Source: Spirochaetaceae bacterium (GTDB lineage: Bacteria; Spirochaetota; Spirochaetia; Treponematales; Treponemataceae). From it: a DNA stretch of 64,000 nucleotides. A model generated the notes under the pieces. That model saw only the letters and a program-made list of their open reading frames with translations, did not search any database and had not been told where the DNA came from. Location: assembly GCA_017618015.1 (NCBI GenBank), contig JAFZVC010000026.1, positions 124,001-188,000 on the forward strand, in the 5' to 3' direction. Numbering within the stretch: the first letter of the stretch is position 1; every line of letters begins with the position of its first letter. Below, piece by piece: positions 32,365 through 48,431 of the stretch. A program made the position numbers and the translations under genes.

Positions 32365-33123
32365 ATGAACGATAAAAATGATGCACTAAAATCTTTTATG
32401 GAAATAGCAGAAGTCATTGAAAATGACAGTTCCATGACGATACAAAATCCAGTACTCGGAGAAGTGATTTTTGCTAACGGAACATTTGGAAATCTCAAAA
32501 AGAAGAACAATGGGGGATTCGGTATAAAACATATAATAGAAGGTCGGTATAGGAAAGATAATCTTTCTAAGGAAGAAATTTCAGCACTGCTATATTTGAT
32601 AAAACAGACTGTAGAAAAAGTACTTCCTGATGAACCACAAAAAACGAGGCTCAACTTACGTGATAACGGTATATTGGTTGGAATCTCAAGGCAATGGATG
32701 GGAACAGAAGAGAGCTGGGTTATAACAGGATTTGCTGAGAAAGAAAATGACAACGAATTAAAAAAAGAAGCGTCAGATGCCATAAAAGCGGTGAACGCAC
32801 AATATGGCTACACACCTGAATTCCTCTCTATCGGCAAACAGGTGGGAGCTGTTATCGCCTCTGTTGATAAGATAACACAAAACAAGGATTTGTCAAGTCA
32901 TAATCCTCTTACAGATTACACGAAGATTGAAGTTAACGGAAAAGAGCGTGAGTGCAGGAACGGAGTCCTCGAAGGATTCAAAAACGCGGTCAGGCAACTA
33001 GACAGTGTAATAGAAACGAACCACGAGCTTTGCGACGAGAACAACCGACTTGTGATGGAGAACATGCGTCTCAAGGAACAGCTGTACAAGAAGAATCATA
33101 ACAAGGAACATGAGCGCGGATAA
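32365..33123 (+). CDS. Possible PBECR-like nuclease head with shared coiled-coil tail
   Basis: This 252-residue protein has two parts. The head (residues 1-175) resembles the phage/ICE Barnase-EndoU-ColicinE5/D-RelE-like nuclease group: GFGIKHIIEGRYRKDN with a candidate catalytic His, a strand-rich middle, and ILVGISRQWMGTEESWVITGF with a paired Trp pattern. The tail (about 180-252; NPLTDYTKIEVNG, then a leucine-zipper-like helix with ETNHELCDENNRLVMEN) is nearly identical to the tail of the protein at 33821-34885, whose head is unrelated. Two heads on one tail suggest a modular effector or polyvalent protein that might be delivered during conjugation. Family assignment of the head is by motif memory only. 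An ICE palindrome and GGAGGTGAG precede the ATG. Confidence 0.55.
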   Translation: MNDKNDALKSFMEIAEVIENDSSMTIQNPVLGEVIFANGTFGNLKKKNNGGFGIKHIIEGRYRKDNLSKEEISALLYLIKQTVEKVLPDEPQKTRLNLRDNGILVGISRQWMGTEESWVITGFAEKENDNELKKEASDAIKAVNAQYGYTPEFLSIGKQVGAVIASVDKITQNKDLSSHNPLTDYTKIEVNGKERECRNGVLEGFKNAVRQLDSVIETNHELCDENNRLVMENMRLKEQLYKKNHNKEHERG

Positions 33124-33820: not shown

Positions 33821-34885
33821 ATGTATACAACTAATTATCCTAAAAACAGATATGATTACATTGAAGGAAAATCAGAATTATATGATGAAGATATTGCGAA
33901 TATTATTGATTTACATCATGAATATCCAGATATGTCCTCACTTAAAAGATATACTGAAAAAAAATATAGGGATTTGACAATTCAAGAAAAAGAATCACTT
34001 ATAAAGACATTATTAAATGATGATGAATATTTAAAATACAAAAATTGCTATATAGCTAAAACAAAACTACTATATGATTCAAGCGAGACTCTAATAAAAG
34101 AAACAGCAGCTTTATCTCGACTGAATGATTTAGGATATGTAGTTTATTTACTTCCTTATGCTTATGCGAGGGATAATATGAATTTTTTTCAGAAATCCGC
34201 AGATTCGATTACAGCAGGGGATTTTCTGGAAATGAAAAGCGTTGTAACAACAGGACCAAGAGCAGGACAAAGTGCTTTTGAAAGTGCAAGACATCAGGCA
34301 AACAATATTTATCTATCAATTGTTAATGATGTTCCAGAACAAAAAATATTAAATAATATATACGGATCTATAGGACAGATAAAAAAAGAAAACAAAAAAA
34401 ATGGTGTGACAGAAAGTTTTGAGGGTAAGTTAATAATAAACTTCGAAAAAAGTAATGAAATATCTCTATATATGATTTCCGAAGAAGGAAGAGTAAATAA
34501 AATTGAAAAACCTGATTTTAATAGTTTCAAAAAAATCAAGGGAACTGTATACGACAGTTCCCAGGTTCTCAAGAACCCCATGACTGAACATGGCAGTTCC
34601 TGTGATTCAAATATATCACAGACTTCAGAAATGTCAAGTGAAAGCAAAAATAATAAAGAATATAATCCTCTTACAGATTACACGAAGATTGAAGTTAACG
34701 GAAAAGAGCGGGAGTGCATGAACGGCGTTCTCGAAGGATTCAAAAACGCGGTCAGGCAACTTGACAGCGTAATAGAAACGAACCACGAGCTTTGCGACGA
34801 GAACAACCGACTCGTGATGGAGAACATGCGTCTCAAGGAACAGCTGAACAATAGAAACCATAACAAGGAACATGAGCGCGGATAA
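33821..34885 (+). CDS. Possible CdiA-CT/PD-(D/E)XK-like nuclease head with shared coiled-coil tail
   Basis: This 354-residue protein has a helical start, then a stretch like the nuclease domain of contact-dependent toxins: ETAALSRLNDLGYVVYLLP (residues 93-111), SITAGDFLEMKSV (about 130-142, a D...E-x-K site) and SAFESARHQANNIYLSI. That order fits CdiA-CT-type tRNA nucleases or other PD-(D/E)XK enzymes. A low-complexity Ser/Asn linker leads to the tail (about 280-354), nearly identical to that of the protein at 32365-33123. The base composition of the head is very A/T-rich, unlike the tail, so head and tail have separate histories. Target and activity are unknown; family call is from motifs. 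Confidence 0.55.
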   Translation: MYTTNYPKNRYDYIEGKSELYDEDIANIIDLHHEYPDMSSLKRYTEKKYRDLTIQEKESLIKTLLNDDEYLKYKNCYIAKTKLLYDSSETLIKETAALSRLNDLGYVVYLLPYAYARDNMNFFQKSADSITAGDFLEMKSVVTTGPRAGQSAFESARHQANNIYLSIVNDVPEQKILNNIYGSIGQIKKENKKNGVTESFEGKLIINFEKSNEISLYMISEEGRVNKIEKPDFNSFKKIKGTVYDSSQVLKNPMTEHGSSCDSNISQTSEMSSESKNNKEYNPLTDYTKIEVNGKERECMNGVLEGFKNAVRQLDSVIETNHELCDENNRLVMENMRLKEQLNNRNHNKEHERG

Positions 34886-34935: not shown

Positions 34936-35469
34936 ATGAGGAAGAAAAAAATATTTAAAGAATTCAGGCGTTGTGTATACTCTCTTGAGGCTGTTATATC
35001 AAGTCAGGATATAAGGCTTGAGAATATGCAGAAATATTTTCTCCGGGAATGGCAGAAACAGGCGGACAGCTATTGGAGATACCGCTTCATGAACAAAAAC
35101 CTCTTCTTCGATTCTTACCTAATGATTAAAGAATTCTACCTGTCGATATCCGACACTTACAATGATTACATGCTCTCTGCCCTAGCCCGTTATCTTGACC
35201 TCATACTTGCGGCAGAGAACAGCACTCAGCTGATACAGCGGATGATTGAGCAGGACGAGAAGCAGTGCGACGGCTCGTATGCTTTCTTCTCTACTTTTTT
35301 ACCCGTCACAGAAATAACAAGAAATAAACTGCTCCTACTGGCAGAAAAAGAGCCGGGTGATTTACGATTGAAAAAACATATTAAAGCGAGCCTTTGCGAA
35401 GGCACAAACAGGCTGCGTCTGTCGCCGTCGCAGAACCTTAATCTGGTTGACCTTCTGTTACGTACGTGA
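34936..35469 (+). CDS. Hypothetical helical protein, 177 residues
   Basis: This protein is nearly all helix, starts with a basic stretch (MRKKKIFKEFRR), and is rich in Tyr and Arg (SYWRYRFMNKNLFF). It has no signal peptide or membrane segment. The ATG at 34936 follows AAGGAG; an ATG at 34931 is followed at once by a stop. It directly follows the second tail-sharing gene and could be its immunity or accessory protein. Its end overlaps the end of the integrase gene on the other strand by 12 nt. No family recognised. Confidence 0.6.
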   Translation: MRKKKIFKEFRRCVYSLEAVISSQDIRLENMQKYFLREWQKQADSYWRYRFMNKNLFFDSYLMIKEFYLSISDTYNDYMLSALARYLDLILAAENSTQLIQRMIEQDEKQCDGSYAFFSTFLPVTEITRNKLLLLAEKEPGDLRLKKHIKASLCEGTNRLRLSPSQNLNLVDLLLRT

Positions 35470-36369
35470 AATAACATTAACAGGAAAATACTTATAATGA
35501 GCTTCGCGGAGCATCTGTTCGTCTACGTGCGTATATATCTGAGTGGTTGTTATCGACGAATGACCGAGGAACCTAGATATCATACAAATATCGGCTCCGC
35601 CTTTTAGCATGTGAGTTGCGCAACTATGCCTGAGAGTATGTACGGAACAGCCGGTGAGTCCGGCTTTATCTGCGTAATACCTGAACCTGAAAAGAATCTC
35701 CCTGGAAGAAAGCTTCGAACCTTGCAATGTCGTGAAAAGATTCCGGCATTTTGATATACGGAGTTCGTGCTGCAGAGCGCGTAATTTAATATAATTTTGA
35801 AGGGCTTTCGAAGCTCTGCCGCCAAAAGGAACAAGACGTTCTTTTCTTCCTTTACCGTTAACAATCAATAATCTCTGCTCTAGCTTCACGTTGTCAAGGA
35901 GCAGATTCCCTGCCTCTGAATTGCGCAATCCGCAACTATATATAAGCTCGAAAAGGCAATAGTCACGGATTCCTATAATACTGTCTGTCTCTATAGATGC
36001 AAGAAATTTCTCGGTCTCCGCCACAGTAAAAACCGTTGGTATTGTTTTTTGAAACTTTGGCGATTCAATCAATGAATAAAAGCCGTATGCCGGATAATTC
36101 TCCTTAAGAAACCGGAAAAACGATTTCAAGCAGGATACGGTATTACAGACAGTCCTGTCTGATTCCCCTGATTCTCTTAAATAAGATATATACGACAAGA
36201 AAATCCTGTACGCTGAATGAAAATCATTCTCAGGAAATAGATAATTCTCTTGCTGAAGCCAAAGAAGATATTGACGTGCCTTATATAGAAGAAGGCTGTC
36301 TGTATTGGGAGAATGCCCAAAAGAGTAAAGCCACAGTTGATATTTGCCCAAAAAACTTTTTTCTTGCAT
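35458..36369 (-). CDS. Tyrosine recombinase (XerC/D-like ICE integrase)
   Basis: This 303-residue protein has the full tyrosine recombinase set: Arg in SCGLRNSEAG (about residue 148), Lys in NGKGRKERLVPFG, HTLRHS (about 248), LGHSSITTTQIYTH with the final His and the nucleophile Tyr (about 278). The N-terminal SAM-like domain (residues 1-100) is short, as in XerC/D and small phage/ICE integrases. I chose the ATG at 36369 (MQEKSFLGK); a longer frame overlaps the divergent gene. Position near the right end of the ICE, close to the first host operon, fits its job of integrating the element. No ribosome binding site is evident on this strand, so the start is not certain. Confidence 0.9.
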   Translation of the reverse strand: MQEKSFLGKYQLWLYSFGHSPNTDSLLLYKARQYLLWLQQENYLFPENDFHSAYRIFLSYISYLRESGESDRTVCNTVSCLKSFFRFLKENYPAYGFYSLIESPKFQKTIPTVFTVAETEKFLASIETDSIIGIRDYCLFELIYSCGLRNSEAGNLLLDNVKLEQRLLIVNGKGRKERLVPFGGRASKALQNYIKLRALQHELRISKCRNLFTTLQGSKLSSREILFRFRYYADKAGLTGCSVHTLRHSCATHMLKGGADICMISRFLGHSSITTTQIYTHVDEQMLREAHYKYFPVNVISRT

Positions 36370-36393
36370 AATAAATAGTAAGGAGGATATAAA

Positions 36394-37086
36394 ATGGGAA
36401 ATAAACCATTCTACATCGCAACGGAACATTTCGGCGTGACTTACCACGGTAAAAGAACGCCGTCCGGACATTACAGAAACAAGTCCGGATCAAAAGAGAA
36501 TATGGTCAGCAATGACTGTATGATAATAACTAATCAAAGCCAGAAGAATCTGTGCCTGCTAATTGACAGTATACCGGAATTCGTCTGCCGTTATAAATTA
36601 TCTTTATGCATTGATTATACGGCAGATTCCAAGAAAAGTAAAACTTCATTGAATCTTTTCACAAGGTATCTAAGTAAGTCGGATTTCAACGAGGGACAAA
36701 AACCGCCTTTGTTTTTTTGGAAAAAACGATATAAGAATAGTCAACTCAATTACCAAATTCTGACAAATGCGCAGCTTACTTTTTCCCCTGAAAAACTAAC
36801 TAATGTAATTCAGTACTTATGGTTTAAATACACACAAAGTTATGAAGCAAAGATAGAAAAAGTAAGCAAAGCAGAAGAACTATCGGCAATAAGGGATTTC
36901 GCATTTAATTTTAAGACCGATATACCACCGGAAGGTTTGTGTAAAAACGAAAAATGGTGGGGAGCAATAAACAGGAAGTATTATATAGTAAAGAAGCCTG
37001 TGAAAAAATATATGACATTAAGGGAGATAATTGAGATAGAAAGTGAGGCGAAACAGAATTTAGCTAACAATCTGTTTATAAAATGA
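36394..37086 (+). CDS. Hypothetical protein divergent from the integrase, 230 residues
   Basis: This basic protein (many Lys, Tyr and Trp) begins 24 nt from the integrase start, with AAGGAGG 7 nt before its ATG. The first 50 residues are Gly/Ser/His-rich (HGKRTPSGHYRNKSGSKEN); the middle has hydrophobic strands and IQYLWFKYTQSYEAKIEKVSKAEEL. I see no known motif, signal peptide or membrane segment. Its location, last gene before the host, suggests an excision or integration accessory factor, or simply cargo. It is A/T-rich like the neighbouring ICE cargo. Confidence 0.6.
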   Translation: MGNKPFYIATEHFGVTYHGKRTPSGHYRNKSGSKENMVSNDCMIITNQSQKNLCLLIDSIPEFVCRYKLSLCIDYTADSKKSKTSLNLFTRYLSKSDFNEGQKPPLFFWKKRYKNSQLNYQILTNAQLTFSPEKLTNVIQYLWFKYTQSYEAKIEKVSKAEELSAIRDFAFNFKTDIPPEGLCKNEKWWGAINRKYYIVKKPVKKYMTLREIIEIESEAKQNLANNLFIK

Positions 37087-37400: not shown

Positions 37401-37832
37401 TCACCTATCTTTTATCAGATAATCAATTGCCTCGATATAGCCGTCAAAACCATGGCCGGTTATTGTCTTACAAGCGAAATAAGAAACGTATGAAATCTGA
37501 CGGAATGGCTCGCGCTCCGGAACGTTAGAAATATGAACCTCGACAGTCGGTATGTTCACAGCTTTAAGAGCATCAAGAAGCGATACGGAAGTATGTGTAT
37601 ATCCGCCTGGATTAAAAACAATACCATCGATCTTATCGAAAAAAGCTTGTTGGATAATGTCAATTAATCCACCTTCGGAATTGCTCTGAAGACATTTGAC
37701 GCTGACGAATTTTTCAGCGCAATGTTTTTCAATCATATCGATTAAATCGTTGTAAGTTTTTTTCCCGTAAATATCAGGTTCACGAATACCAAGCATATTC
37801 AAATTTGGACCATTAAGAACAAGAAGTTTCAT
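37401..37832 (-). CDS. aroQ: 3-dehydroquinate dehydratase, type II
   Basis: This 143-residue enzyme removes water from 3-dehydroquinate to give 3-dehydroshikimate, step three of the shikimate pathway. Type II signatures are present: LVLNGPNLNMLGIREPDIYG at the start, NSEGGLIDIIQ (about residues 51-61), FNPGGYTHTSVSLLDA (about 73-88), EVHISNV (about 97-103) and REPFRQISYVS. Length is normal. It is the last gene of the aro operon, separated by 3 nt from the aroE-aroK fusion; no type I (aroD) gene is in the cluster. Confidence 0.96.
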   Translation of the reverse strand: MKLLVLNGPNLNMLGIREPDIYGKKTYNDLIDMIEKHCAEKFVSVKCLQSNSEGGLIDIIQQAFFDKIDGIVFNPGGYTHTSVSLLDALKAVNIPTVEVHISNVPEREPFRQISYVSYFACKTITGHGFDGYIEAIDYLIKDR

Positions 37833-37835
37833 TTC

Positions 37836-39134
37836 CTAAAAATCTCCTGTTGTTTTTGCGATTTTCTGTATAAGTGAGTCTATGAGCGGATCACCAGCAA
37901 TAAAATCTGGTAAATCCCAAGTTTCATCACAAACAGATTCATAAAGTGGCGAACGTTGCTCAAAAAGCTTTTCAATGCCAGTATTCTGGCTTACAGGTCT
38001 GTTGCTGACATTTTGTTTTTTTAGTGTTTCAAGCGGTCGTTTTATGTAGATAACATGTGAGTTTGCACGCAGATAGAAAAAGTTTTCCGGTCTGGTAACA
38101 ATTCCGCCGCCCGTTGAAATAACAATGCCAGAGCGTGGAAGAATCTTCTTTGCAAGCTCGGTTTCCATCTGTCTGAAAGCACCCTCGCCTTTTGTTTTTA
38201 TGACTTCAGCCGGCGTAACTCCATATTCATCAATGAACGCATTGTCAAGGTCGATAAGCTGACGATTCAAAGCCGCAGCAAGCTTTTTTCCAATTCGGCT
38301 TTTTCCGGAGCCAGGCATACCCACAAGCGTGATATTCATCATCTCTTTTTCAAGAGATTTTGTTACGCTCTCAATAAGATCATCTTCTTCTTTCCCGGAA
38401 GATTCGAGCGAAAACTTATCGCCTTTAAACACGATGCTTGCTTTATACGCCTGTGCTACAAGCATATAAAGACCGCCGGCATGTTTTACGCCAAGTTGTT
38501 CGGCTTGCTGTAAAAATCGCGTTCTTGAAGGATTGTATACGATATCTGCTGCGGCATAAAGCTTTGGAAACCGTGACAAATCGATCGGAGAATCATCGAT
38601 GTTCGGGAACATTCCGACTGGCGTTGTATTTACGATGATTTCAGCATCAGATTGCACCGTGTAAACGTTTTCGTAATTGATATCACCTGTCCGTGAACAA
38701 AAATCGATACGTGCGGCATTAAGTTTTTTCAAAGCGTACTCGATAGCAACGCTTGCGCCACCTGTGCCTAAAACAAGGCAGTTCTTCCCATTTACTTCGA
38801 CCCCCGCTTGCCTTAGCATGTATACAAATCCGTACACATCGGTATTAAAGCCCTTGAAACCGCCTTCTGGAAGCGAGACGACAGTGTTCACCGCCCCTAT
38901 TTCCTGGGCTTCGTCTGAAAGCTCCTTGCACAAGCTGCAAGCGAGTTTTTTATAAGGAATCGTTACGTTAAAACCATCGAGTTTTTCTTTTTCAGACGAA
39001 GAGTTTCCTGTGAAAATAGCCCGAACCTCATCTTCTGTACGCTCCAAAACCGTATACTCATAATCTGCAAAAGATTTATGAATCCGTGGAGAATATGTAT
39101 GCGGAAGTGATTTTCCCAAAACACCGAACATCAT
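37836..39134 (-). CDS. Shikimate dehydrogenase-shikimate kinase fusion
   Basis: This 432-residue protein joins two pathway enzymes. Residues 1-250 are AroE (SLPHTYSPRIHKSF at the substrate site, FNVTIPYK, the Rossmann LVLGTGGAS), reducing dehydroshikimate with NADPH. From about residue 266 the AroK/AroL part begins (NITLVGMPGSGKSRIGKKLA with Walker A, DLDNAFIDEYG, STGGGIVTR, and R in NRPVSQN), phosphorylating shikimate. The linker (about 250-265) is short and acidic. Both active sites look intact, so the fused protein should carry out two consecutive steps. Fusions of aroE with other aro genes are known (for example aroDE in plants and AROM in fungi); this pair is less common. Confidence 0.93.
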   Translation of the reverse strand: MMFGVLGKSLPHTYSPRIHKSFADYEYTVLERTEDEVRAIFTGNSSSEKEKLDGFNVTIPYKKLACSLCKELSDEAQEIGAVNTVVSLPEGGFKGFNTDVYGFVYMLRQAGVEVNGKNCLVLGTGGASVAIEYALKKLNAARIDFCSRTGDINYENVYTVQSDAEIIVNTTPVGMFPNIDDSPIDLSRFPKLYAAADIVYNPSRTRFLQQAEQLGVKHAGGLYMLVAQAYKASIVFKGDKFSLESSGKEEDDLIESVTKSLEKEMMNITLVGMPGSGKSRIGKKLAAALNRQLIDLDNAFIDEYGVTPAEVIKTKGEGAFRQMETELAKKILPRSGIVISTGGGIVTRPENFFYLRANSHVIYIKRPLETLKKQNVSNRPVSQNTGIEKLFEQRSPLYESVCDETWDLPDFIAGDPLIDSLIQKIAKTTGDF

Positions 39135-39157: not shown

Positions 39158-40309
39158 TTATACAACTTCATTATATGAGCCGAGATATCGGAACTCTTTC
39201 GTCATTGAATGAAGGTCCTCTATCATCTCTGCGAAGCCTTCGTTGTAAATTGAAGTTTCCAAGTCAAAATAGAACATGAATTCAAACATTCTGCCAGGTA
39301 AAGGACGTGATTCAAGCTTTACGAGGTTTATTCCGCGTGAATAGAAAAATGCGAGGATTCTGTAAAGAGAACCTGGCTCGTGGTTAAGAATCATCATCAT
39401 TGATGTTCTGTTTGCACCCGGATAAATCTCCAGATCTTTTGAAATGACGATGAACCTTGTGTAGTTGTTGTCAGAATCCTGAACAGATGTCTGCATAATT
39501 TCAAGATTATAAAGCTCACTGCATCGTTTTGAGGAAAGACAGCATATATCATTCCTTCCTGATGTAGAGACGATTTTAGCGGCTTCTGCAGTGTTCTGGC
39601 AGGCTGTTACTTTGACATCTGGACCAAGATTTTTGATAAATTCACGGCACTGATTCAAAGCCTGCTCATGCGAGATGACTTCTTTTATATCGCTCATTTT
39701 GCTTCCTGGATTCATAAGGCAGTTATGATCAACTTTAACCCTGATAGCCCTTACAATTTTGAAATGATGTTGGATCATCTGGTCATAAACGGCGGAAACT
39801 GTGCCTGCATTTGAGTTCTCTACAGGAAGAACGCCATATTTGCAAAGCCCGGATTCGATCGCGGAGAAAACTTGCGAGAAGTTTTTCATAAACATAATGC
39901 TAGGAATCTGGAACAGTTTTTCACATGCTTCCTGCGAGAAAGCACCTTCAATTCCCTGGCAAGCCACTACTGCCCTTACTGGAAAGGCTTTTGATGACAT
40001 TTCTTCAATTACTTTTCTTACTTGCAAAGCTTCTTCGCTTTTTTCTTGGATCAGTTTGCTTTGAATGCTCCGAGAGATTTCAAATAAAAGGGAATAAATA
40101 GGAGGAACAAAAGGCTGCGTAAGTTCATCTGCTTTATCGTAGATAGCAGAAAGTTTTTCCCGTTCGCGAAGACCATCATAAATTGGTTTTCCGCTTGATT
40201 TTTTGTAGTTTCCGATTTTTTCAGCGACTCTCATGCGCTGTTCCAAAGCTGTCAAAAGCGCGTCATCAGCTTTGTCCATTTCTTCTCTAAGTTTTGTTAA
40301 GTCTTCCAT
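39158..40309 (-). CDS. pheA: Chorismate mutase-prephenate dehydratase (P-protein)
   Basis: This 383-residue bifunctional enzyme converts chorismate to phenylpyruvate. Residues 1-90 are an AroQ-type chorismate mutase helix bundle (LREEMDKADDALLTALEQRM in part, KIGNYKKSSGKPIYD). Residues 110-290 are prephenate dehydratase (GIEGAFSQEAC, VLPVENSNAGTVSAVYD, and the YTRFIVIS end). The last 90 form an ACT domain (MMMILNHEPGSLYRILAFF, NLVKLESRPLPG), with the ESRP phrase used for Phe feedback inhibition. It is the Phe branch enzyme of the operon. Confidence 0.95.
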   Translation of the reverse strand: MEDLTKLREEMDKADDALLTALEQRMRVAEKIGNYKKSSGKPIYDGLREREKLSAIYDKADELTQPFVPPIYSLLFEISRSIQSKLIQEKSEEALQVRKVIEEMSSKAFPVRAVVACQGIEGAFSQEACEKLFQIPSIMFMKNFSQVFSAIESGLCKYGVLPVENSNAGTVSAVYDQMIQHHFKIVRAIRVKVDHNCLMNPGSKMSDIKEVISHEQALNQCREFIKNLGPDVKVTACQNTAEAAKIVSTSGRNDICCLSSKRCSELYNLEIMQTSVQDSDNNYTRFIVISKDLEIYPGANRTSMMMILNHEPGSLYRILAFFYSRGINLVKLESRPLPGRMFEFMFYFDLETSIYNEGFAEMIEDLHSMTKEFRYLGSYNEVV

Positions 40310-40346: not shown

Positions 40347-41450
40347 TTATATTAAATCCGCAAGTGCGAGTGCGGCGGCGGCTTCATAAACTGGAACAGC
40401 ACGCGGCACAATGCAAGGATCGTGCCTGCCCTGCACTTTTATTGTCGTGTTCTGCTTGGTCGCCAAATCGACTGTCTGCTGTTCCATCGCGATTGTCGGC
40501 GTTGGTTTTACGGCAACTTCAAAAACGATTGGAGCAACAGAGCCACCAACACTGATGCCGCCAAGGATTCCACCGCATCTGTTCGTTTTAAGACGGAGAG
40601 AATTGTTTTCGCTCGTGTCGGCAAAAACTAGGCTGTCATTGTTCAGGGAGCCGCGTAAAGCCGCCGCCGCAAAACCGTTACCAAATTCCACGCCTTTACA
40701 TGCCGGTACTGCAAAGCAAATTGAAGCTATTTTACCTTCAATTCCTTCAAAAATCGGTCCCCCGATGCCACCAGGAACACCTTCTATTACAACTTCAATA
40801 ATGCCACCAACAGAGTCGTCAACTGCCCTAGCCTCCGCGATTTTTTGTTTCATCAGATTGCCTTTTTCGTAATCTATAACTGGAAATTCTTTTTCGGCAA
40901 CTTTGTGAAGTTCATCTAGAAATTGAGTATCAACTGGCGAATCAAATGAATATGACTTGTCACTGATTCCCGCAATCGATTTTATATGGGCGCTTATGCG
41001 GATGCCTTTTTGAGCGAGGTATGAGAGCGCAAGAAAACCTGCGGCACAAAGCGGAGCTGTCAATCTGCCGGAAAAAGAGCCGCCGCCAGATGACTTAAAA
41101 CTCTCGCCGTATTTGAGTCGTGCTGTAAAATCTGCGTGCCCCGGACGTGGTGTTATCAAAAGATTAGAATAATCGTGCGGCTTTGTGTTTGTGTTAAGGA
41201 TATGCGCCTCAAACAGGCCGTTTTTAAGCGTATCTACGATAACGACATCAGCTTCTTTTCGCGGAGTTGACCAAGCGTTCTGTCCGGGCGCACGCCGCTT
41301 CATGAAGTTTTTTAATGCGTCGGTATCAAGTTTGTCGTATTCCAAACCTTCAAGACGGACACCAATGCTTTCGCTATGAGATTCTCCGTATATCCCGATT
41401 TTAAGTTTGTCGCCTTTGAACCAATTATATGTATTATTCAGATTTGCCAT
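40347..41450 (-). CDS. aroC: Chorismate synthase
   Basis: This 367-residue enzyme makes chorismate from EPSP with reduced FMN. Signatures seen: GESHSESIGVRLEGL (residues 19-33), RRAPGQNAWSTPRKE, RPGHADFTARLKYGE, SGGGSFSGRLTAPLCAAG, and GGILGGISVGGSVAPIVFEVAVKPTP in part. Length is normal for the bacterial form. It ends the common chorismate pathway in this operon. It is 2 nt from the aroA stop. Confidence 0.96.
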   Translation of the reverse strand: MANLNNTYNWFKGDKLKIGIYGESHSESIGVRLEGLEYDKLDTDALKNFMKRRAPGQNAWSTPRKEADVVIVDTLKNGLFEAHILNTNTKPHDYSNLLITPRPGHADFTARLKYGESFKSSGGGSFSGRLTAPLCAAGFLALSYLAQKGIRISAHIKSIAGISDKSYSFDSPVDTQFLDELHKVAEKEFPVIDYEKGNLMKQKIAEARAVDDSVGGIIEVVIEGVPGGIGGPIFEGIEGKIASICFAVPACKGVEFGNGFAAAALRGSLNNDSLVFADTSENNSLRLKTNRCGGILGGISVGGSVAPIVFEVAVKPTPTIAMEQQTVDLATKQNTTIKVQGRHDPCIVPRAVPVYEAAAALALADLI

Positions 41451-41452
41451 TG

Positions 41453-42772
41453 CTATTCCTTTGTTCCATCATCCACAGTTTTTGTTGATTTTTCTATAAG
41501 CTCAAAAAGTCCTGGAAACGATTTGTTGACGCAATCTTTATTGTCTATGTAAACGGTTTGTCCTGTCCAAGCGGCGATAAGACAAGCTGTCATCGCCATT
41601 CTGTGATCGCCGAAAGTTTCGATTGATGGCGTACCATGCCCGTACGATAATCCGCCATGTATAACAAGCGTTCCATCCAGTTCTTCAGCTTTTACGCCGA
41701 CCGCTGCCAAAGCTTTTATCGTAGCTTCGACTCTGTCGCATTCTTTGAATCTAAGCCGCTCTACATTCTTTATTTTTGTAAGTTTCGTGCGGGCAGCGGC
41801 GAGAACAGCGATATACGGCACAATATCAGGATAATCAGAAGCATCAAGTTCCAATTCATCAACCTGAACCGCAGAATTTGGCGACATCATATCAAGCAAG
41901 ATACTGTTTCCGTTCCATTCCGTTTTGATACCAAGTTTTGAAAGGATTTGGACAATCACTTTATCTTTTTGAATTGAGTTTTTATTAAGGCCGTTGAGTA
42001 CAATTCGCGATTTTTTTGCGAGAGCACCAAGGCAAAGCAAAAATGATGCGCTTGACCAGTCGCCTTCTGCCATGTTTTTGTTTTCACAAAGCGCGGAGAT
42101 TGTATTTATCGTAAAAAGTCCGTTTTGTTCATCGATTTTAATTCCAAAAGATTTGAGCGTTGAAATAGTAAGTTCAAAATATCCTTTTGATTCAAGCGCA
42201 CCAATAAGTTTAACAGAAGAGTCCGGCAGCAATACAAGAGCCATAAGAAGCCCGGAAATATACTGAGAAGAAATATTGCCCTGGATTTCGAAAACACCAG
42301 CGGTAAGATTTCCACTTTCTGTTATTGTTCCTGCCTCTTTATCTATAAAGACGCTTATACCATGAGAGGAAAGGCATTCAATAAGCTGGTCGAGCGGTCT
42401 TTCAATAAGCTTTCCTTTTGGCTCGAAAACAAGACGCTTTTTTTCTGAAAGTCCTTTGTATGATAGATAAGCTGATCCAACACTCATCATAAACCGAAGC
42501 GTAGAACCGCTTTCGTTACAAGGCATTATAATATCGCGCTCGTCAACCGCACAGGAAGCTTCGTACAAGGCTTTTAAGCAACCTCGCGTAGCTCGAATAT
42601 CATCATTATCAGTTGGAAGAATCTCAATAATTTCGCGGATTGCTGCCTTATCCGGTTCAGAATTTAGCGTTTGAAGCAAAAAACTGATTATAAGCTGCCT
42701 ATGAACGACAGATTTTGACGGTGGAACTGAGAAATCTAGGTTTATGTTCGGGATATTAACCGCATATTTCAT
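41453..42772 (-). CDS. aroA: 3-phosphoshikimate 1-carboxyvinyltransferase (EPSP synthase)
   Basis: This 439-residue enzyme joins shikimate 3-phosphate and PEP. Signatures: PPSKSVVHRQLIISFLL (residues 17-33), NESGSTLRFMMSVGSAYL (about 85-102), SSQYISGLLMAL, LDASDYPDIVPYIAVLAA, RLRFKECDRVEATIKAL in part, and FGDHRMAMTACL. The site NESGSTLRF differs from the N-A-G-T-A-x-R of the glyphosate-sensitive class I, so it may belong to a different sensitivity class. Its start overlaps the aroB stop by 4 nt. Confidence 0.94.
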   Translation of the reverse strand: MKYAVNIPNINLDFSVPPSKSVVHRQLIISFLLQTLNSEPDKAAIREIIEILPTDNDDIRATRGCLKALYEASCAVDERDIIMPCNESGSTLRFMMSVGSAYLSYKGLSEKKRLVFEPKGKLIERPLDQLIECLSSHGISVFIDKEAGTITESGNLTAGVFEIQGNISSQYISGLLMALVLLPDSSVKLIGALESKGYFELTISTLKSFGIKIDEQNGLFTINTISALCENKNMAEGDWSSASFLLCLGALAKKSRIVLNGLNKNSIQKDKVIVQILSKLGIKTEWNGNSILLDMMSPNSAVQVDELELDASDYPDIVPYIAVLAAARTKLTKIKNVERLRFKECDRVEATIKALAAVGVKAEELDGTLVIHGGLSYGHGTPSIETFGDHRMAMTACLIAAWTGQTVYIDNKDCVNKSFPGLFELIEKSTKTVDDGTKE

Positions 42773-43794
42773 AAATATTGCCTAAGTTCCTCAGCCTGAA
42801 TAGTTTTAAGCTCACCATGTCCGATTTTATTTACAAGCGCGATAGTAAGCTTGCCGCCGCGCTTTTTCTTATCGTTCATAACGCCTTGCATAATCTCTTC
42901 GGGCGTTATCGGGTCGTCATAAGGAAGTCCGTATAATTTAAGCATTTCTATAAGCTCATCGTGTATGGCGCTTGTGCGGGTGATGCGCTCCATTCCTTTT
43001 GCGACGGCAAAACCATGCGGAACGGTGTAATTGCTTCTGCTTTCAATGGCATGGCCGATTGTATGGCCAAAGTTCAAAATTTGACGCAAGCCATTGTCGT
43101 GCTCATCTTGAGCGACAACTTCTGCTTTTATTCTGATGTTTTGTGCAACAATCTGCTCCAATTCCGGGGATGACTTCGTAACTTTTTGCCGCAGGGTTTG
43201 GTAAAGGCTTTCATCACGGATAAAAGCATGCTTTATAACTTCTGCCATTCCCTCTGTGAAAACGTTATCATCGAGTGTTGATAAAAGGCTTGTATCCGCA
43301 ATTACAAGAGACGGTTGATAAAATGAACCGACAAGGTTTTTTCCCTGCGGCAAGTCAACGCCTGTCTTTCCTCCGACGGAAGCGTCTACTTGCGCAAGAA
43401 GCGATGTCGGTATTTGGAAAACTTTGATTCCACGTAGAAAGATTGATGCGGCGAAACCCGCCATATCAGTCGTTACTCCACCACCAAGTGCGACAACGGC
43501 ATCAGTACGTGTAAAAGCATTTACAGCCATCGTTCCAAGAATTTTCGCGATAGTATCGAGATTCTTGCTTTGTTCGCCAGCAGCAAAAACAAACTCAAAT
43601 ACCTGAAAACCTGCATCAGTCAAAGACTTTTTAAGTTTCCCAAGATAAAGGCTTGAAACATTTGAGTCTGTCACTACAAGAAGCTTCTGAATCCTGCTTG
43701 ATGTGCCTGCAATATGCTCACCGCTTTTTTCAAGCAGTCCGCTTCCGACCAGAACATCGTATTCTTTTCCTGCTTTTACATGTATCTTTTCCAT
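42769..43794 (-). CDS. aroB: 3-dehydroquinate synthase
   Basis: This 341-residue NAD- and metal-dependent enzyme closes the ring of DAHP to 3-dehydroquinate. Signatures: GEQSKNLDTIAKIL (NAD side), ALGGGVTTDMAGFAAS (about residues 103-118), PTSLLAQVDASVGGKTGVDLPQGKN in part, EVIKHAFI with catalytic residues, and NFGHTIGHAIE (metal-binding His). Length is normal. It overlaps aroA by 4 nt and starts 3 nt after the tyrA stop, so the operon is tight here. Confidence 0.96.
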   Translation of the reverse strand: MEKIHVKAGKEYDVLVGSGLLEKSGEHIAGTSSRIQKLLVVTDSNVSSLYLGKLKKSLTDAGFQVFEFVFAAGEQSKNLDTIAKILGTMAVNAFTRTDAVVALGGGVTTDMAGFAASIFLRGIKVFQIPTSLLAQVDASVGGKTGVDLPQGKNLVGSFYQPSLVIADTSLLSTLDDNVFTEGMAEVIKHAFIRDESLYQTLRQKVTKSSPELEQIVAQNIRIKAEVVAQDEHDNGLRQILNFGHTIGHAIESRSNYTVPHGFAVAKGMERITRTSAIHDELIEMLKLYGLPYDDPITPEEIMQGVMNDKKKRGGKLTIALVNKIGHGELKTIQAEELRQYL

Positions 43795-43796
43795 TT

Positions 43797-44627
43797 TTAA
43801 CCGTCCAGCTCTGCCTTGCGCTGGCTTCCATCTTCCAAAAGCTGCTTCAGTTCGTCCTTGTTGTTGCTTATCATTGCATCTTTGTATTTAGAAAGTTCCG
43901 TTATAAGGCTGTCTATTTCTTTAACAAGATTGTCTTTGTTTTCCATAAAGAGCTCAGACCACATCGTAGCGTTAAGCCAAGCAACGCGCGTAAGGTCTTT
44001 GTAGCTGCCGGCAGAAAAACCGTGATGTTCCGCGGCGGTCGGGCTTTTTACATAAGCGTTCGACACAACGTGCGCCAACTGTGAAGTAAATGCAATCATC
44101 TCGTCGTGCTTGTCGGCGTGCGAAAGGCAAAAGCTTCCAAACTCAGCCGGAGCCATAGCTTCTTTTACACGGTCCAAAATCTTCATGTCGTCGAAAGTTT
44201 CAGGAACAATTACAAGCGGTGCGCCTTTGAAAAGCGAAGCCCTTGAGTGCTTCAAACCTGAATACTTGTTTCCCGCCATTGGATGCGCGCCGACAAAAAC
44301 AAAGCCATTCTTTTTGGCTATCTTAAAGCATTCGTCGCACACTACCCGCTTTATTCCGCCAGAATCCATTACAAGCCCGCCTTTGCGGAAGTTTTTGGCG
44401 TTCTCTTTTACGTAATCAATTGTCGCCTGTGGATATACACAAATCAGTACTAAATCGCAATCTTTAAGTTTTTCGCTTGTGAGCGTATCGTCGACAAAAC
44501 CGGCTATTTTACCCATAAGAACAGCTGAATTGTCTATATCATGGATAAGGACAGTCCATCCTGCTTCTTTGTATGCTTTTGCGAACGACGCGCCAATCAA
44601 ACCAAGCCCAACAATGCCGACAGTCAC
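43797..44627 (-). CDS. tyrA: Prephenate/arogenate dehydrogenase
   Basis: This 276-residue NAD(P)-dependent enzyme oxidises prephenate (or arogenate) on the Tyr branch. It opens with the Rossmann motif GIVGLGLIGASFAKAYKEAG (residues 4-23) and has GAHPMAGNKYSG (about 132-143) and SQLAHVVSNAYV, both family signatures. There is no ACT domain and no fused chorismate mutase, so feedback by Tyr may act elsewhere, for example by attenuation of the operon. The stop of aroF is immediately upstream. Confidence 0.93.
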   Translation of the reverse strand: MTVGIVGLGLIGASFAKAYKEAGWTVLIHDIDNSAVLMGKIAGFVDDTLTSEKLKDCDLVLICVYPQATIDYVKENAKNFRKGGLVMDSGGIKRVVCDECFKIAKKNGFVFVGAHPMAGNKYSGLKHSRASLFKGAPLVIVPETFDDMKILDRVKEAMAPAEFGSFCLSHADKHDEMIAFTSQLAHVVSNAYVKSPTAAEHHGFSAGSYKDLTRVAWLNATMWSELFMENKDNLVKEIDSLITELSKYKDAMISNNKDELKQLLEDGSQRKAELDG

Positions 44628-45626
44628 TTAAATCACCTCGCGGATTTTCATAACGCGTTTCGCTACATCGTCAAACTGAGCCGGAGTAAGTGACTGCGCA
44701 CCATCGCACAATGCTTTTTGTGGATTATTGTGAACTTCAATCATAATTCCGTCGGAACCACAAGCTGCAGCCGCCATTGCCATCGGTTTAACCATGCGAG
44801 CAATTCCGGTAGCGTGTGACGGGTCGACAATTATAGGCAGATGAGTAAGCTCATGGAGCATTGGAACTGCTGAAAGGTCAAGCGTGTTGCGTGTATATGT
44901 CTCGTAAGTGCGGATTCCGCGCTCGCAGAGAATTACGTTTTCGTTGCCATTTGACATAATGTATTCGGCGCTCATAAGGAACTCTTTCATTGTATTTGCA
45001 AGACCGCGTTTAAGAAGAATCGGCTTTTTGAGCTTGCCTAAGTCTTTAAGGAGCTCAAAGTTCTGCATATTGCGAGCGCCTACCTGTATCAAATCGACAT
45101 CTGAGAAAAGCGCAAGATGATCGGAACTCATAATCTCCGTGACAATCGGCATTCCCGTAACTCTTTTAGCTTCGAGCAAAAGCTCAAGACCTTCTGCCTG
45201 AAGTCCCTGGAAGTCATATGGAGATGTCCTTGGCTTGAATGCGCCACCGCGAAGAAGTTTTGCGCCGGAAGCTTTTACTGCCTTTGCAATTTCGATAATT
45301 TGGTCGCGGTTCTCAACGGAGCATGGACCGGCAATTAACGCGAAGTTTCCACCGCCTATTTTTACACCACCAACGTCAACGATTGTATCATCGGGATGGA
45401 ATTTCCTGTTCGCTTTTTTGTAAGGCTCTGATATGCGTGTTACGGATTCAATGATATCAAGACCTTTCAGCAAATCGATATCAACTTTTGTTGTATCGCC
45501 GACAAGTCCAAGAACGGTCTTGAACTCACCTTCTGATATGTGAACTTTCAATCCCTGTGATTTGAACCAGTCGATTAAGTTATTAATCTGTTCCTGGCTA
45601 ACACCTGATTTAATTACTGCTATCAT
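44628..45626 (-). CDS. aroF: DAHP synthase (type I-beta, with N-terminal regulatory domain)
   Basis: This 332-residue enzyme joins PEP and erythrose 4-phosphate, the first step of the pathway. The N-terminal 70 residues (VIKSGVSQEQINNLIDWF ... LGLVGDT) form a ferredoxin/ACT-like domain as in Thermotoga-type DAHP synthase, which binds Tyr or Phe. The barrel has AGPCSVENRDQI, LLRGGAFKPRTSPYDFQG, QVGARNMQNF, LLKRGLANTMKEF and IIVDPSHATGI. I set the start at 45626, after AGAGGTG; the longer frame would run into the terminator. First gene of the aro operon, 37 nt past an attenuator-like terminator. Confidence 0.95.
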   Translation of the reverse strand: MIAVIKSGVSQEQINNLIDWFKSQGLKVHISEGEFKTVLGLVGDTTKVDIDLLKGLDIIESVTRISEPYKKANRKFHPDDTIVDVGGVKIGGGNFALIAGPCSVENRDQIIEIAKAVKASGAKLLRGGAFKPRTSPYDFQGLQAEGLELLLEAKRVTGMPIVTEIMSSDHLALFSDVDLIQVGARNMQNFELLKDLGKLKKPILLKRGLANTMKEFLMSAEYIMSNGNENVILCERGIRTYETYTRNTLDLSAVPMLHELTHLPIIVDPSHATGIARMVKPMAMAAAACGSDGIMIEVHNNPQKALCDGAQSLTPAQFDDVAKRVMKIREVI

Positions 45627-45663
45627 AAAAACACCTCTTATGTATTTACCGTTAATCAAACAT

Positions 45664-45693
45664 AAAAAAAACCGCCCGGAAGTGACCGTGCGG
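45664..45693 (-). terminator. Attenuator-like terminator before the aro operon
   Basis: Minus-strand CCGCACGG and CCGGGCGG pair with one mismatch around TCACTT, followed by eight T. The upstream segment GAAGTGATT (45734-45742) can pair with GGTCACTTC (45679-45687) of this hairpin (7 pairs plus 2 G-U), which would block it: an antiterminator. Confidence 0.75.
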
Positions 45694-45740
45694 TTTTCTT
45701 TACAGTTTACTATTTAGTAACTTATATACCACAAATCACT

Positions 45741-45812
45741 TCAACCCCTACTGTTCTTAAAGTAATAAAATGAGTAAAAGTAAAATGTGTTATAATAAGC
45801 GTTAAATGTCAT
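45741..45812 (-). CDS. Phe/Tyr-rich leader peptide of the aro operon (candidate)
   Basis: An ATG at 45812 opens a 23-residue frame in which 11 residues are aromatic (5 Phe, 6 Tyr), including FYFYSFYYF; it ends at TGA 45741-45743, 48 nt before the terminator hairpin. A ribosome stalled on Phe/Tyr codons would leave the antiterminator strand (45734-45742) free, while one reaching the stop would cover it. That is the logic of leader-peptide attenuation. There is no clear ribosome binding site; the ATG is 15 nt after, and in frame with, the TAG of the radical-SAM gene, so reinitiation is possible. The sequence is A/T-rich, which raises the chance of Phe/Tyr codons. Confidence 0.6.
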   Translation of the reverse strand: MTFNAYYNTFYFYSFYYFKNSRG

Positions 45813-45827
45813 ATGCCAATTAAAGCA

Positions 45828-48431
45828 CTATTGCATTTTTGTGTCAATGGGAGAAAATGATTCAAGTTCCTTTTTCGCTTTATCAAGGAACTGTTCATGA
45901 AGCGAGGCAAGATAAGAGAATCTATCGAAATAATCAACAGGCTGCTCTTTTTCGTCCTTTGCGAGCGTTTTTGTCTTTACAATATGGATTATCTTGTGGA
46001 TTTTATCACCAAAGAAAGCTGATATCGCATCGCGCAAAGGCCTGTCGCCTTCAAAACAAACTTTGATTGAGTACTCGCCTTCTTTTATTTTTTGTTCGAA
46101 AATCTGATATTTGGCCTTCAGTTCGGTAAAAGAAGAACTGCTGAAAAAATCATCTGTATTTGGACCGTATTGATCTTTGAAGTAATAGATGTACTCGGAA
46201 CCATATAATTGTGTCGCAAGCGAAACACGCTTTTTCTTACGCGTCACGGGATAGATTATGCATTTAGTAATCTTGAATTGTGGCGGAAGACAAGCATTAA
46301 GCTTGTTCATAAATGTTTCTGGAGTTGTTTCATATCTTAAAAGGCATGAACCGATTTCATCCATACTTTCTGTTCCGAGTGAGATACATGTGGCAAGTTC
46401 CATCCTGGGAACGGGATTAAAGCCGTCAGTGAAGATAATCGGAAGCTCTGTACGTAAGAAAGCTTTGTGAATCATTTCCTGCATAGCGAGATGCGGAATA
46501 AACTGTGCTCCATTGTTTTTTGTAAAAGAAAACAAAACCCTGAAAAGAAGCGGGATGTTGTTTTCTCTTATCGGTGTTGTCGTTATGCAGCTGTTTTTCA
46601 AATCTTCAGGAAGTGAATCAAACTGATTTTCTACAGAATCTACATGAACATGTATATTTTTCTGTACATTACAGACTCCGCATGGCATTTTGCAATGCTC
46701 TGAACAGCGGTCTGTAAGCTGCTGATTCACTGATTTTTCGAATTCACGCTTGAAAAATACAGGGCTCGCGCCAAGACTTATATCGTTCCAAGGCAGGATT
46801 TCGTCAGCAGATCGTTCGCGAGTGACTTCGCTTTCAACATCCCAGCCAGCTTCAGAAATCGCTTCCTGCCACAAATCTTTTCGCATGTGGTCTTCCCAGG
46901 CATCCAAGCGGCAACCTTTTTTGAAAGCCGAATAAAAAAGATGACCCGCCCTGCTGTCTCCGCGCGAAATAATGCCTTCAACGAACGAAACAAACTCGTC
47001 GTGTGTGCTTACCTTAAACTTCCCGCGCGGAAGCGATTTATGGATAAAAGCCATCTTCTCTTTTGATTCTTCCATTGTCAGCTGCCGTACACGCTCGTAT
47101 GGAGTATGTGGCTTCGGAATAAATGTTCCGACATTCACAGAACACTGGATATGCGTTTTCTCTTGTATTTCAAGAAGGAAATCAACAATCTCCTGTTCTT
47201 CTGTTTTTGGGTTCTGCTGCTTTTTAATGTGCTGCTCGTCATTAGCAGGAGGAAGTCCGACCATAAAGTAAAACTTAGCCTTGCTCCAGCCGCGCTTTTT
47301 AGCTTCCTCAATAATTTCAACAAGCTTGCTTGTATATACTTCTTTGTTTACAGAAAGCTGCCAGGCTTCTGCAGGTGTCTCTATGGCGAAAGTAAGCCCG
47401 CTTTTTCGGACTTCCGACAGCTTCTCAAGAAGCGGCAACGTAAAAGTATTTACTTTTAGAGACGGCAGCTGGAACGAAACGTTCGCGCGGGAAAACTTCT
47501 TTGTAAGAATATCGAGCAACTTGTCTATGCAAGGATAATCGCCCGAAGACAGCGATGTAAGGCTTATTTCCCTGAATCCGCCCTCTCTGACTAAAGCTTC
47601 TGCTTCCTGCAAAATAAACTTTGGGTCTTTAGTACGCTGCGGCCTGTAGTAAATGCCTGCGTGACAAAAGCGGCATCCGTTCGGGCAGCCGCGCATAATT
47701 TCAATAACACCGTGGTTTTGGACTGGCTTTATCGTTGGAACCGGATAAAAGTTTTTTTTGGACGCATACTGCCCGAACTGTGTGTCAAAAGCCTTCTCCG
47801 CTTTTTTCCCCGGCACCCAAACATATTTGTTTTGGGCAAGAAGCTCAAGTAATTCAGCTTTTGATGCGCCTTCCTTCTTTTTAAGCGCGAGTGTCTCGAA
47901 AAGCTTAAAAAACTCGTCTTCTGCCTCGCCTATAAAAACGGCGTCCAAAAAGTCTGTGAAGGGTGCCGGGTTCGTTACGCCACAGCCACCTGCAATCAGT
48001 ATGGGGTGCGTTTCATCCCTGTCTTTTTTCAATGCCGGTATATGTCCAGATTCAAGTATTGTGAACATCCCGGTGATGCCAAGCTCATAACCGATAGAAA
48101 AGCCTATGCAGTCGGCTTCGTAAAGCGGTATTCCCGTCTCCAGTGAAAAAAGCGGAATATTCCGTTCCTTAAGAAGCTCTTCAAAATCAGTGTCGGGTGT
48201 AAAAACGCGCTCACAACGGACATACGGGCTCTTGTTCAAGCCGTTATAAAGGATGTGGACAGCTTGATTGCTCATGCCAATTTCGTATAAATCTGGGAAA
48301 GCCATGATAAAAGTGAACGGAACTGAATCATCTTTTACAGTCTGTCCGTATTCTCCGCCTAAATAACGAGACGGACCTTGCACATCAAGCAAAGAGTCGC
48401 CGAATGTTTCCAAAGGTTTGATGTGGGTCAT
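45828..48431 (-). CDS. Radical SAM protein with C-terminal DUF2344 domain (TIGR03960 type)
   Basis: This 867-residue protein has a cobalamin-binding-like N-terminal part, a radical SAM cluster site GCPNGCRFCHAG (about residue 255; CxxxCxxC), and a C-terminal DUF2344 domain (RVLFSFTKNNGAQFIPHLAMQE in part, FTDGFNPVPRMELA). Extra Cys pairs (CSEHCKMPCGVCNV, near residue 590) could hold a second cluster. The two domains occur as separate or fused genes next to cell-shape genes in many bacteria; the reaction is not established to my knowledge. It follows rodA in the operon and ends 16 nt before the aro leader peptide. Confidence 0.85.
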   Translation of the reverse strand: MTHIKPLETFGDSLLDVQGPSRYLGGEYGQTVKDDSVPFTFIMAFPDLYEIGMSNQAVHILYNGLNKSPYVRCERVFTPDTDFEELLKERNIPLFSLETGIPLYEADCIGFSIGYELGITGMFTILESGHIPALKKDRDETHPILIAGGCGVTNPAPFTDFLDAVFIGEAEDEFFKLFETLALKKKEGASKAELLELLAQNKYVWVPGKKAEKAFDTQFGQYASKKNFYPVPTIKPVQNHGVIEIMRGCPNGCRFCHAGIYYRPQRTKDPKFILQEAEALVREGGFREISLTSLSSGDYPCIDKLLDILTKKFSRANVSFQLPSLKVNTFTLPLLEKLSEVRKSGLTFAIETPAEAWQLSVNKEVYTSKLVEIIEEAKKRGWSKAKFYFMVGLPPANDEQHIKKQQNPKTEEQEIVDFLLEIQEKTHIQCSVNVGTFIPKPHTPYERVRQLTMEESKEKMAFIHKSLPRGKFKVSTHDEFVSFVEGIISRGDSRAGHLFYSAFKKGCRLDAWEDHMRKDLWQEAISEAGWDVESEVTRERSADEILPWNDISLGASPVFFKREFEKSVNQQLTDRCSEHCKMPCGVCNVQKNIHVHVDSVENQFDSLPEDLKNSCITTTPIRENNIPLLFRVLFSFTKNNGAQFIPHLAMQEMIHKAFLRTELPIIFTDGFNPVPRMELATCISLGTESMDEIGSCLLRYETTPETFMNKLNACLPPQFKITKCIIYPVTRKKKRVSLATQLYGSEYIYYFKDQYGPNTDDFFSSSSFTELKAKYQIFEQKIKEGEYSIKVCFEGDRPLRDAISAFFGDKIHKIIHIVKTKTLAKDEKEQPVDYFDRFSYLASLHEQFLDKAKKELESFSPIDTKMQ

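Follow-up and report, generated by a model that had tools for sequence, protein, structure and literature searches.

A rumen Treponema encodes a complete route from chorismate to phenylalanine and tyrosine on one strand (aroF-tyrA-aroB-aroA-aroC-pheA-aroE/K-aroQ), and the element in front of aroF is in all likelihood a ribosome-mediated transcription attenuator, responding to charged tRNA-Phe and tRNA-Tyr and governing all eight genes. The leader very probably switches the operon on when Phe or Tyr runs short, and sequence evidence by itself could hardly make a stronger case for ribosome-mediated attenuation. It lies in a 64,000-nt stretch of a Spirochaetaceae contig (JAFZVC010000026.1, positions 124,001 to 188,000), hereafter the window, to which all coordinates refer unless another locus is named (Table 1).

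An earlier note on this DNA had proposed Phe/Tyr attenuation before the aro operon, naming a 23-codon aromatic frame, a terminator with eight T and a tyrA lacking an ACT domain. All three are confirmed: the leader frame has 11 aromatic codons (5 Phe and 6 Tyr), 37 nt lie between the T8 terminator and the aroF ATG (45626), and the domain content of TyrA is as described. A 41-nt spacer separates the leader stop from the terminator.

Table 1. Predicted regulatory features and genes of the aromatic amino acid operon, in window coordinates.
Feature	Position	Strand	Comment
-35 box TTGACA (predicted)	45842-45847	-	same place in all clade members
-10 box TTTAAT (predicted)	45819-45824	-	17-nt spacer from TTGACA; 6 nt to leader ATG
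Leader peptide MTFNAYYNTFYFYSFYYFKNSRG	45741-45812	-	ATG at 45812, TGA at 45741-45743; no Shine-Dalgarno
Region 1 (aromatic codons)	45761-45792	-	partner of region 2 if free of ribosome
Region 2	45728-45742	-	at and just past leader stop; partner is region 1 or region 3
Region 3	45679-45694	-	terminator 5' arm and loop; antiterminator partner of region 2
Intrinsic terminator (3:4)	45664-45699	-	stem 45666-45699, T8 at 45664-45671
Local hairpin, region 2 and next segment	45716-45740	-	-7.5 kcal/mol, fold only; possible pause hairpin
aroF Shine-Dalgarno	45632-45637	-	GAGGTG-like
aroF, DAHP synthase with N-terminal ferredoxin-like domain	44628-45626	-	PF00793 and PF18152
tyrA, prephenate dehydrogenase without ACT domain	43797-44627	-	domain matches PDH_N and PDH_C only
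aroB	42769-43794	-	
aroA	41453-42772	-	
aroC	40347-41450	-	
pheA, chorismate mutase and prephenate dehydratase	39158-40309	-	weak ACT match under Pfam cut-off
aroE-aroK fusion	37836-39134	-	
aroQ, type II dehydroquinase	37401-37832	-	final gene of the operon

The optimum fold of 45664-45812 has a free energy of -41.1 kcal/mol (z -5.3), a value reached by none of 200 shuffles, and combines the pairing of the aromatic codons with 45728-45742 (1:2) with the terminator (3:4). The pairing of 45734-45742 with 45679-45687 claimed in the earlier note is real and longer than stated, comprising 15 pairs between 45728-45742 and 45679-45694 (2:3). Region 2 can pair with region 1 or with region 3 and the two pairings are mutually exclusive, which is the classical attenuator layout; region 1 (GCACATATTACTT) resembles region 3 (GCACGGATCACTT). 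Each of the two states does fold, as that note had asked to see. When the transcript ends with region 3 and a ribosome stalled at an aromatic codon masks the leader to that point, 2:3 forms at -19.4 kcal/mol; in nascent folds it stays with the ribosome at codons 5-17 and is gone with the ribosome at the stop. The local hairpin at 45716-45740 competes with it. Once the whole terminator is present, 3:4 is favoured at equilibrium in every ribosome state. The switch must therefore be kinetic, with 2:3 prevailing over the more stable terminator fold because it forms first.

We infer the following course in the cell, from the start of transcription through leaderless initiation and stalling to termination. 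Transcripts from the promoter at 45819-45847 would begin at the leader AUG or beside it, which would let a 70S ribosome load at their 5' end. With Phe or Tyr short, the ribosome would halt at one of the 11 aromatic codons and cover region 1; 2:3 would then pair, no terminator would form and aroF onward would be transcribed. With both plentiful, the ribosome at the UGA would cover region 2, leaving 3:4 to stop transcription before aroF, and without translation 1:2 would form and 3:4 would again terminate. Leader peptides can regulate translation in other systems, a precedent for attenuation acting chiefly on aroF translation, but this seems extremely unlikely here given a strong T8 terminator ending ahead of aroF and an aroF Shine-Dalgarno outside the folded region.

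The window has a consensus promoter, with the leader ATG at the +1 predicted from the boxes only. Promoters scoring at least 10/12 precede 72 of 96 leaders, compared with 2.2% of shuffles. The true start might instead lie inside or after the leader frame, leaving the leader untranslated and the terminator to serve only read-through from upstream. A TTGGCA/TATTAT-like pair does overlap the leader start, as the earlier note pointed out, and the upstream gene (45828-48431) ends only 15 nt from the leader ATG, with its stop codon within the promoter spacer. We consider this very unlikely, however, since TTGACA is kept across the clade, relatives keep the aromatic frame, and TTGACA-17-TTTAAT persists in the 98%-identical relative G006 despite different flanking DNA upstream; the internal pair is outcompeted by this conserved promoter.

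Transcription start through these boxes would leave the leader without a 5' untranslated region. Among spirochaete leaders outside the window's clade with a detectable promoter, the ATG falls no more than 9 nt past the -10 box in 37 of 39 and a Shine-Dalgarno motif is found in one of 39, whereas in Clostridia the ATG lies within 10 nt of the -10 box in 4 of 40 leaders and 30 of 40 have the motif. As aroF itself carries a Shine-Dalgarno motif in 50 of 52 spirochaete loci, its lack is specific to the leader. By distance, the leaders of the window and G006 (both 6 nt) are leaderless, and those of G005 (28 nt), L036 and L052 (25 nt, GGAG) and the Clostridia loci L038-L041 (29-30 nt, GGAG) are not. 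For L010, L035 and L057 the start picked automatically lies at 11 nt, and the GGAG-led TTG of L010 gives 23 nt. All these start sites are predictions from consensus boxes only. With the ATG of spirochaete leaders mostly 6-9 nt past the -10 box and no Shine-Dalgarno, the window's leader is probably leaderless, as in other spirochaetes and unlike Clostridia, and the comparison suggests that the attenuator, once acquired, shed its 5'UTR in the lineage of the window.

A chance frame in AT-rich DNA is ruled out by shuffles and by relatives. Only one in 5000 dinucleotide shuffles of the window's upstream region gave an aromatic frame as dense, and frames holding 8 or more aromatics in 12 codons occur in 45 of 108 aroF upstream regions, mainly from treponemes and Clostridia, where dinucleotide shuffles predict 0.3. 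Most of 40 further Treponemataceae loci repeat this result, as do some loci of other spirochaete families, and at a looser limit 45 of 73 sampled Treponemataceae loci have the frame. Terminators precede aroF behind 81 of 96 leaders across lineages; none was found in the other 15 by a finder that overlooks terminators whose T run is broken (e.g., L044). In 54 of the 81 the end of the leader is complementary to the terminator arm at p≤0.05, and in 38 at p≤0.01, each p-value being for a single locus against mononucleotide shuffles. In most native treponemes region 2 lies within the last codons of the leader, not past the stop, and the pairing letters differ (TGCGGA/TCCGCA, GCAGAGTTC/GAACTCTGC, GGAAGTC/GACTTCC), with the layout the same. 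Judged from these sequences, a Phe/Tyr-codon switch of the same kind is common in treponemes and gut Clostridia.

Within the window's 12-member clade, 97.4% of cells support the 2:3 pairing, a share that falls to 34-49% in slid controls; 1:2 is also kept, and the terminator is 100% paired in all. Covariation there is thin, amounting to one double change in 2:3 (G-C to A-U) in four related sequences of a single lineage, so the argument is carried by composition and by evidence across lineages. Relatives thus keep the aromatic codons and stems, the comparison called for in the earlier note, and together with the folds of both states they support its proposal.

Aromatic leaders also precede aroF in a Lentisphaerae MAG (L096) and a Synergistaceae MAG (L067), which extends the device to phyla beyond spirochaetes and Bacillota. 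Three loci of another spirochaete family (L157, L159 and L160; family f19, G261/G287) have aromatic leaders, one of them Phe-only (MKAKFISNIISNSFCFAFFFSFFGV), in which the stop codon lies within a GGCG...CGCC hairpin and no clear terminator is seen before aroF. A ribosome at that stop would melt the hairpin, and the logic may therefore differ.

The composition of the leader tracks what the operon makes, with little overlap between classes. In operons with both tyrA and pheA (n=33), F/(F+Y) in the aromatic core is 0.38-0.71 (median 0.50; window 0.40), in those with tyrA and no pheA (n=15) 0-0.40 (median 0.14), and in those with pheA and no tyrA (n=4) 0.75-1.0, eight loci at contig ends having been set aside. 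Mann-Whitney comparisons of the classes gave p-values of 5.5e-8, 0.001 and 0.003, which overstate independence because the loci are related. The pattern recurs in Treponema (G099, G089, G028), Ruminococcus-like MAGs and others, and also inside the window's clade, where G185 and relatives have pheA reduced to a 90-aa chorismate mutase. PheA is the mutase alone in both G185 and G005 (L187 6588-6860, L188 5957-6313); the window and G006 retain the fused dehydratase. Leader type was predicted for two second aroF copies before they were fetched, and both predictions held: the aroF-tyrA copy of G406 has the leader ...NYYYIGGRYYYAVF... and the copy upstream of pheA in G404 has ...VYFAFSFFFGWFYFSRF.... 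A second copy in G393 also has a Phe-rich frame, and that in G397 has no leader. Exceptions are G005, which keeps its Phe codons with the dehydratase part of pheA lost, and mixed leaders, seen in G001 and G092 and kept by some Treponema aroF-tyrA operons.

Two further alternatives bear on this pattern. A conserved, aromatic frame could be translated for its own sake as a functional hydrophobic peptide with regulation incidental; yet residues outside the aromatic run vary, Phe and Tyr swap with operon content and the tail of the frame is a pairing partner, making such a peptide so improbable as to be nearly negligible. T-boxes regulate aromatic genes in Firmicutes, and if the RNA sensed tRNA or a metabolite directly, as a T-box or otherwise, the frame would be incidental. 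T-box identity was rejected, with no covariance model match between 40 and 50 kb of the window even at E≤1 and none in a set of 20 loci, the majority having no strong leader frame. Different lineages conserve the frame and not a fixed RNA fold, and codon mix follows the operon's genes; a direct sensor accordingly appears extremely improbable, and we retain the ribosome-mediated attenuator.

The operon and its attenuator appear to have been acquired together. The window's AroF is 92-98% identical to those of G005 and G006, 85% identical to rumen Clostridia MAGs and 61-64% identical to four other members of the genus, and a maximum-likelihood tree joins its group to the rumen Clostridia with 100/99 support, far from the native Treponema AroF clade. 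Such a grouping inside Clostridia points to horizontal transfer. In G006 the operon sits behind different upstream DNA, similarity beginning about 10 nt before the -35 box, and together with the tree this suggests that promoter, leader and operon moved as a unit. Contigs mis-binned into a MAG could mimic such an origin, but the result is shared by four Clostridia assemblies and five or more from Treponema, and the contig that holds the window extends over 347 kb.

About 0.9 kb past the operon end is a PF00589 phage-integrase-family recombinase (35458-36471, minus strand), with a bacterial DNA topoisomerase farther out (29578-31641, plus strand); the two may belong to a mobile element adjoining the acquired operon. 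Neighbouring plus-strand frames at 32365-33123 and 33821-34885 have almost the same C-terminal stretch (NPLTDYTKIEVNGKEREC...GVLEGFKNAVRQLDSVIETNHELCDENNRLVMENMRLKEQL), the former with a weak PBECR1 nuclease match.

His-rich leader frames (e.g., MNLVHLHAHHHHSHHEAIR, MSLVIMHAHHHHSHEVSQ) precede hisG in six congeners (L203-L208), with a terminator after those read by eye and the ATG 6-9 nt past the -10 box in the five scored. No Trp leader was found before trpE in the genus (a gene identified in just three of seven genomes), nor a consistent Ile/Leu/Val leader before ilvB. At one of the hisG loci (L205, 31-150) the TD-1 RNA model (RF03155) scores 60.7 bits, just under its cut-off of 64.5. We lean slightly towards a broader view in which leaderless leader peptides (AUG at +1, with 70S ribosomes loading at the 5' end of the nascent RNA) are a general amino acid attenuation device of spirochaetes at aroF and hisG, specificity for Phe, Tyr or both is retuned with the gain or loss of tyrA and pheA by operons, and a horizontally acquired clostridial attenuator led by a Shine-Dalgarno was made leaderless in the window's lineage.

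No description of leader-peptide attenuation in Treponema, Brachyspira or other spirochaetes was found in the literature searched, an absence that is weak evidence as subscription journals fell mostly outside the search. The present locus would bring classical attenuation into this phylum, where, as in gut Clostridia, it appears common at the entry to the aromatic pathway. It would also offer a natural series in which sensor codons shift with the operon's product, a marker by which leaderless translation in spirochaetes could be read, and an instance of a regulatory RNA moving between phyla along with its operon.

The enterobacterial pheA and pheST attenuators have a short Phe-rich leader, a mutually exclusive antiterminator and terminator, and a Phe-related target. 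The window's element resembles these systems (Rfam Phe_leader, RF01859) in its short leader, exclusive structures and Phe-related target, but would sense Phe and Tyr together, would control an eight-gene chorismate-to-Phe/Tyr operon in a different phylum, and has no Shine-Dalgarno and an ATG at the predicted +1; against RF01859 it scores 28.2 bits (E 0.23), below the curated cut-off of 55 bits. By its published description, the uORFC-13-1 motif before aroF is restricted to Acholeplasma and environmental sequences and has an RBS and one Phe codon or more (PMC8632094); none of the window's Rfam matches bears its name. The motif shares with the window a Phe-codon uORF, possible promoter boxes and a terminator just before aroF, and differs in that the description reports no Tyr run or link to operon content. 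Leader peptides, earlier known only in Proteobacteria and Actinobacteria, were extended to bacilli (PMC2965389), and the hisL-type leaders of Proteobacteria and the hisZ/hisS His leader of bacilli likewise place a run of codons for the sensed amino acid before a terminator, for another amino acid and other genes. Mycobacteria have polycysteine uORF attenuators that are leaderless (Canestrari 2020, via PMC9031893; candidates in PMC4633059). As far as these accounts go, their frame has codons that match the pathway product and starts without a 5' leader, as the window's probably does, but they respond to cysteine, belong to Actinobacteria and control downstream translation, unlike the window with its intrinsic terminator and clear 2:3/3:4 switch. 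The kind of attenuator is thus already known, and what appears to be new is its dual Phe/Tyr sensing, its probable leaderless start, its phylum and its evolving specificity.
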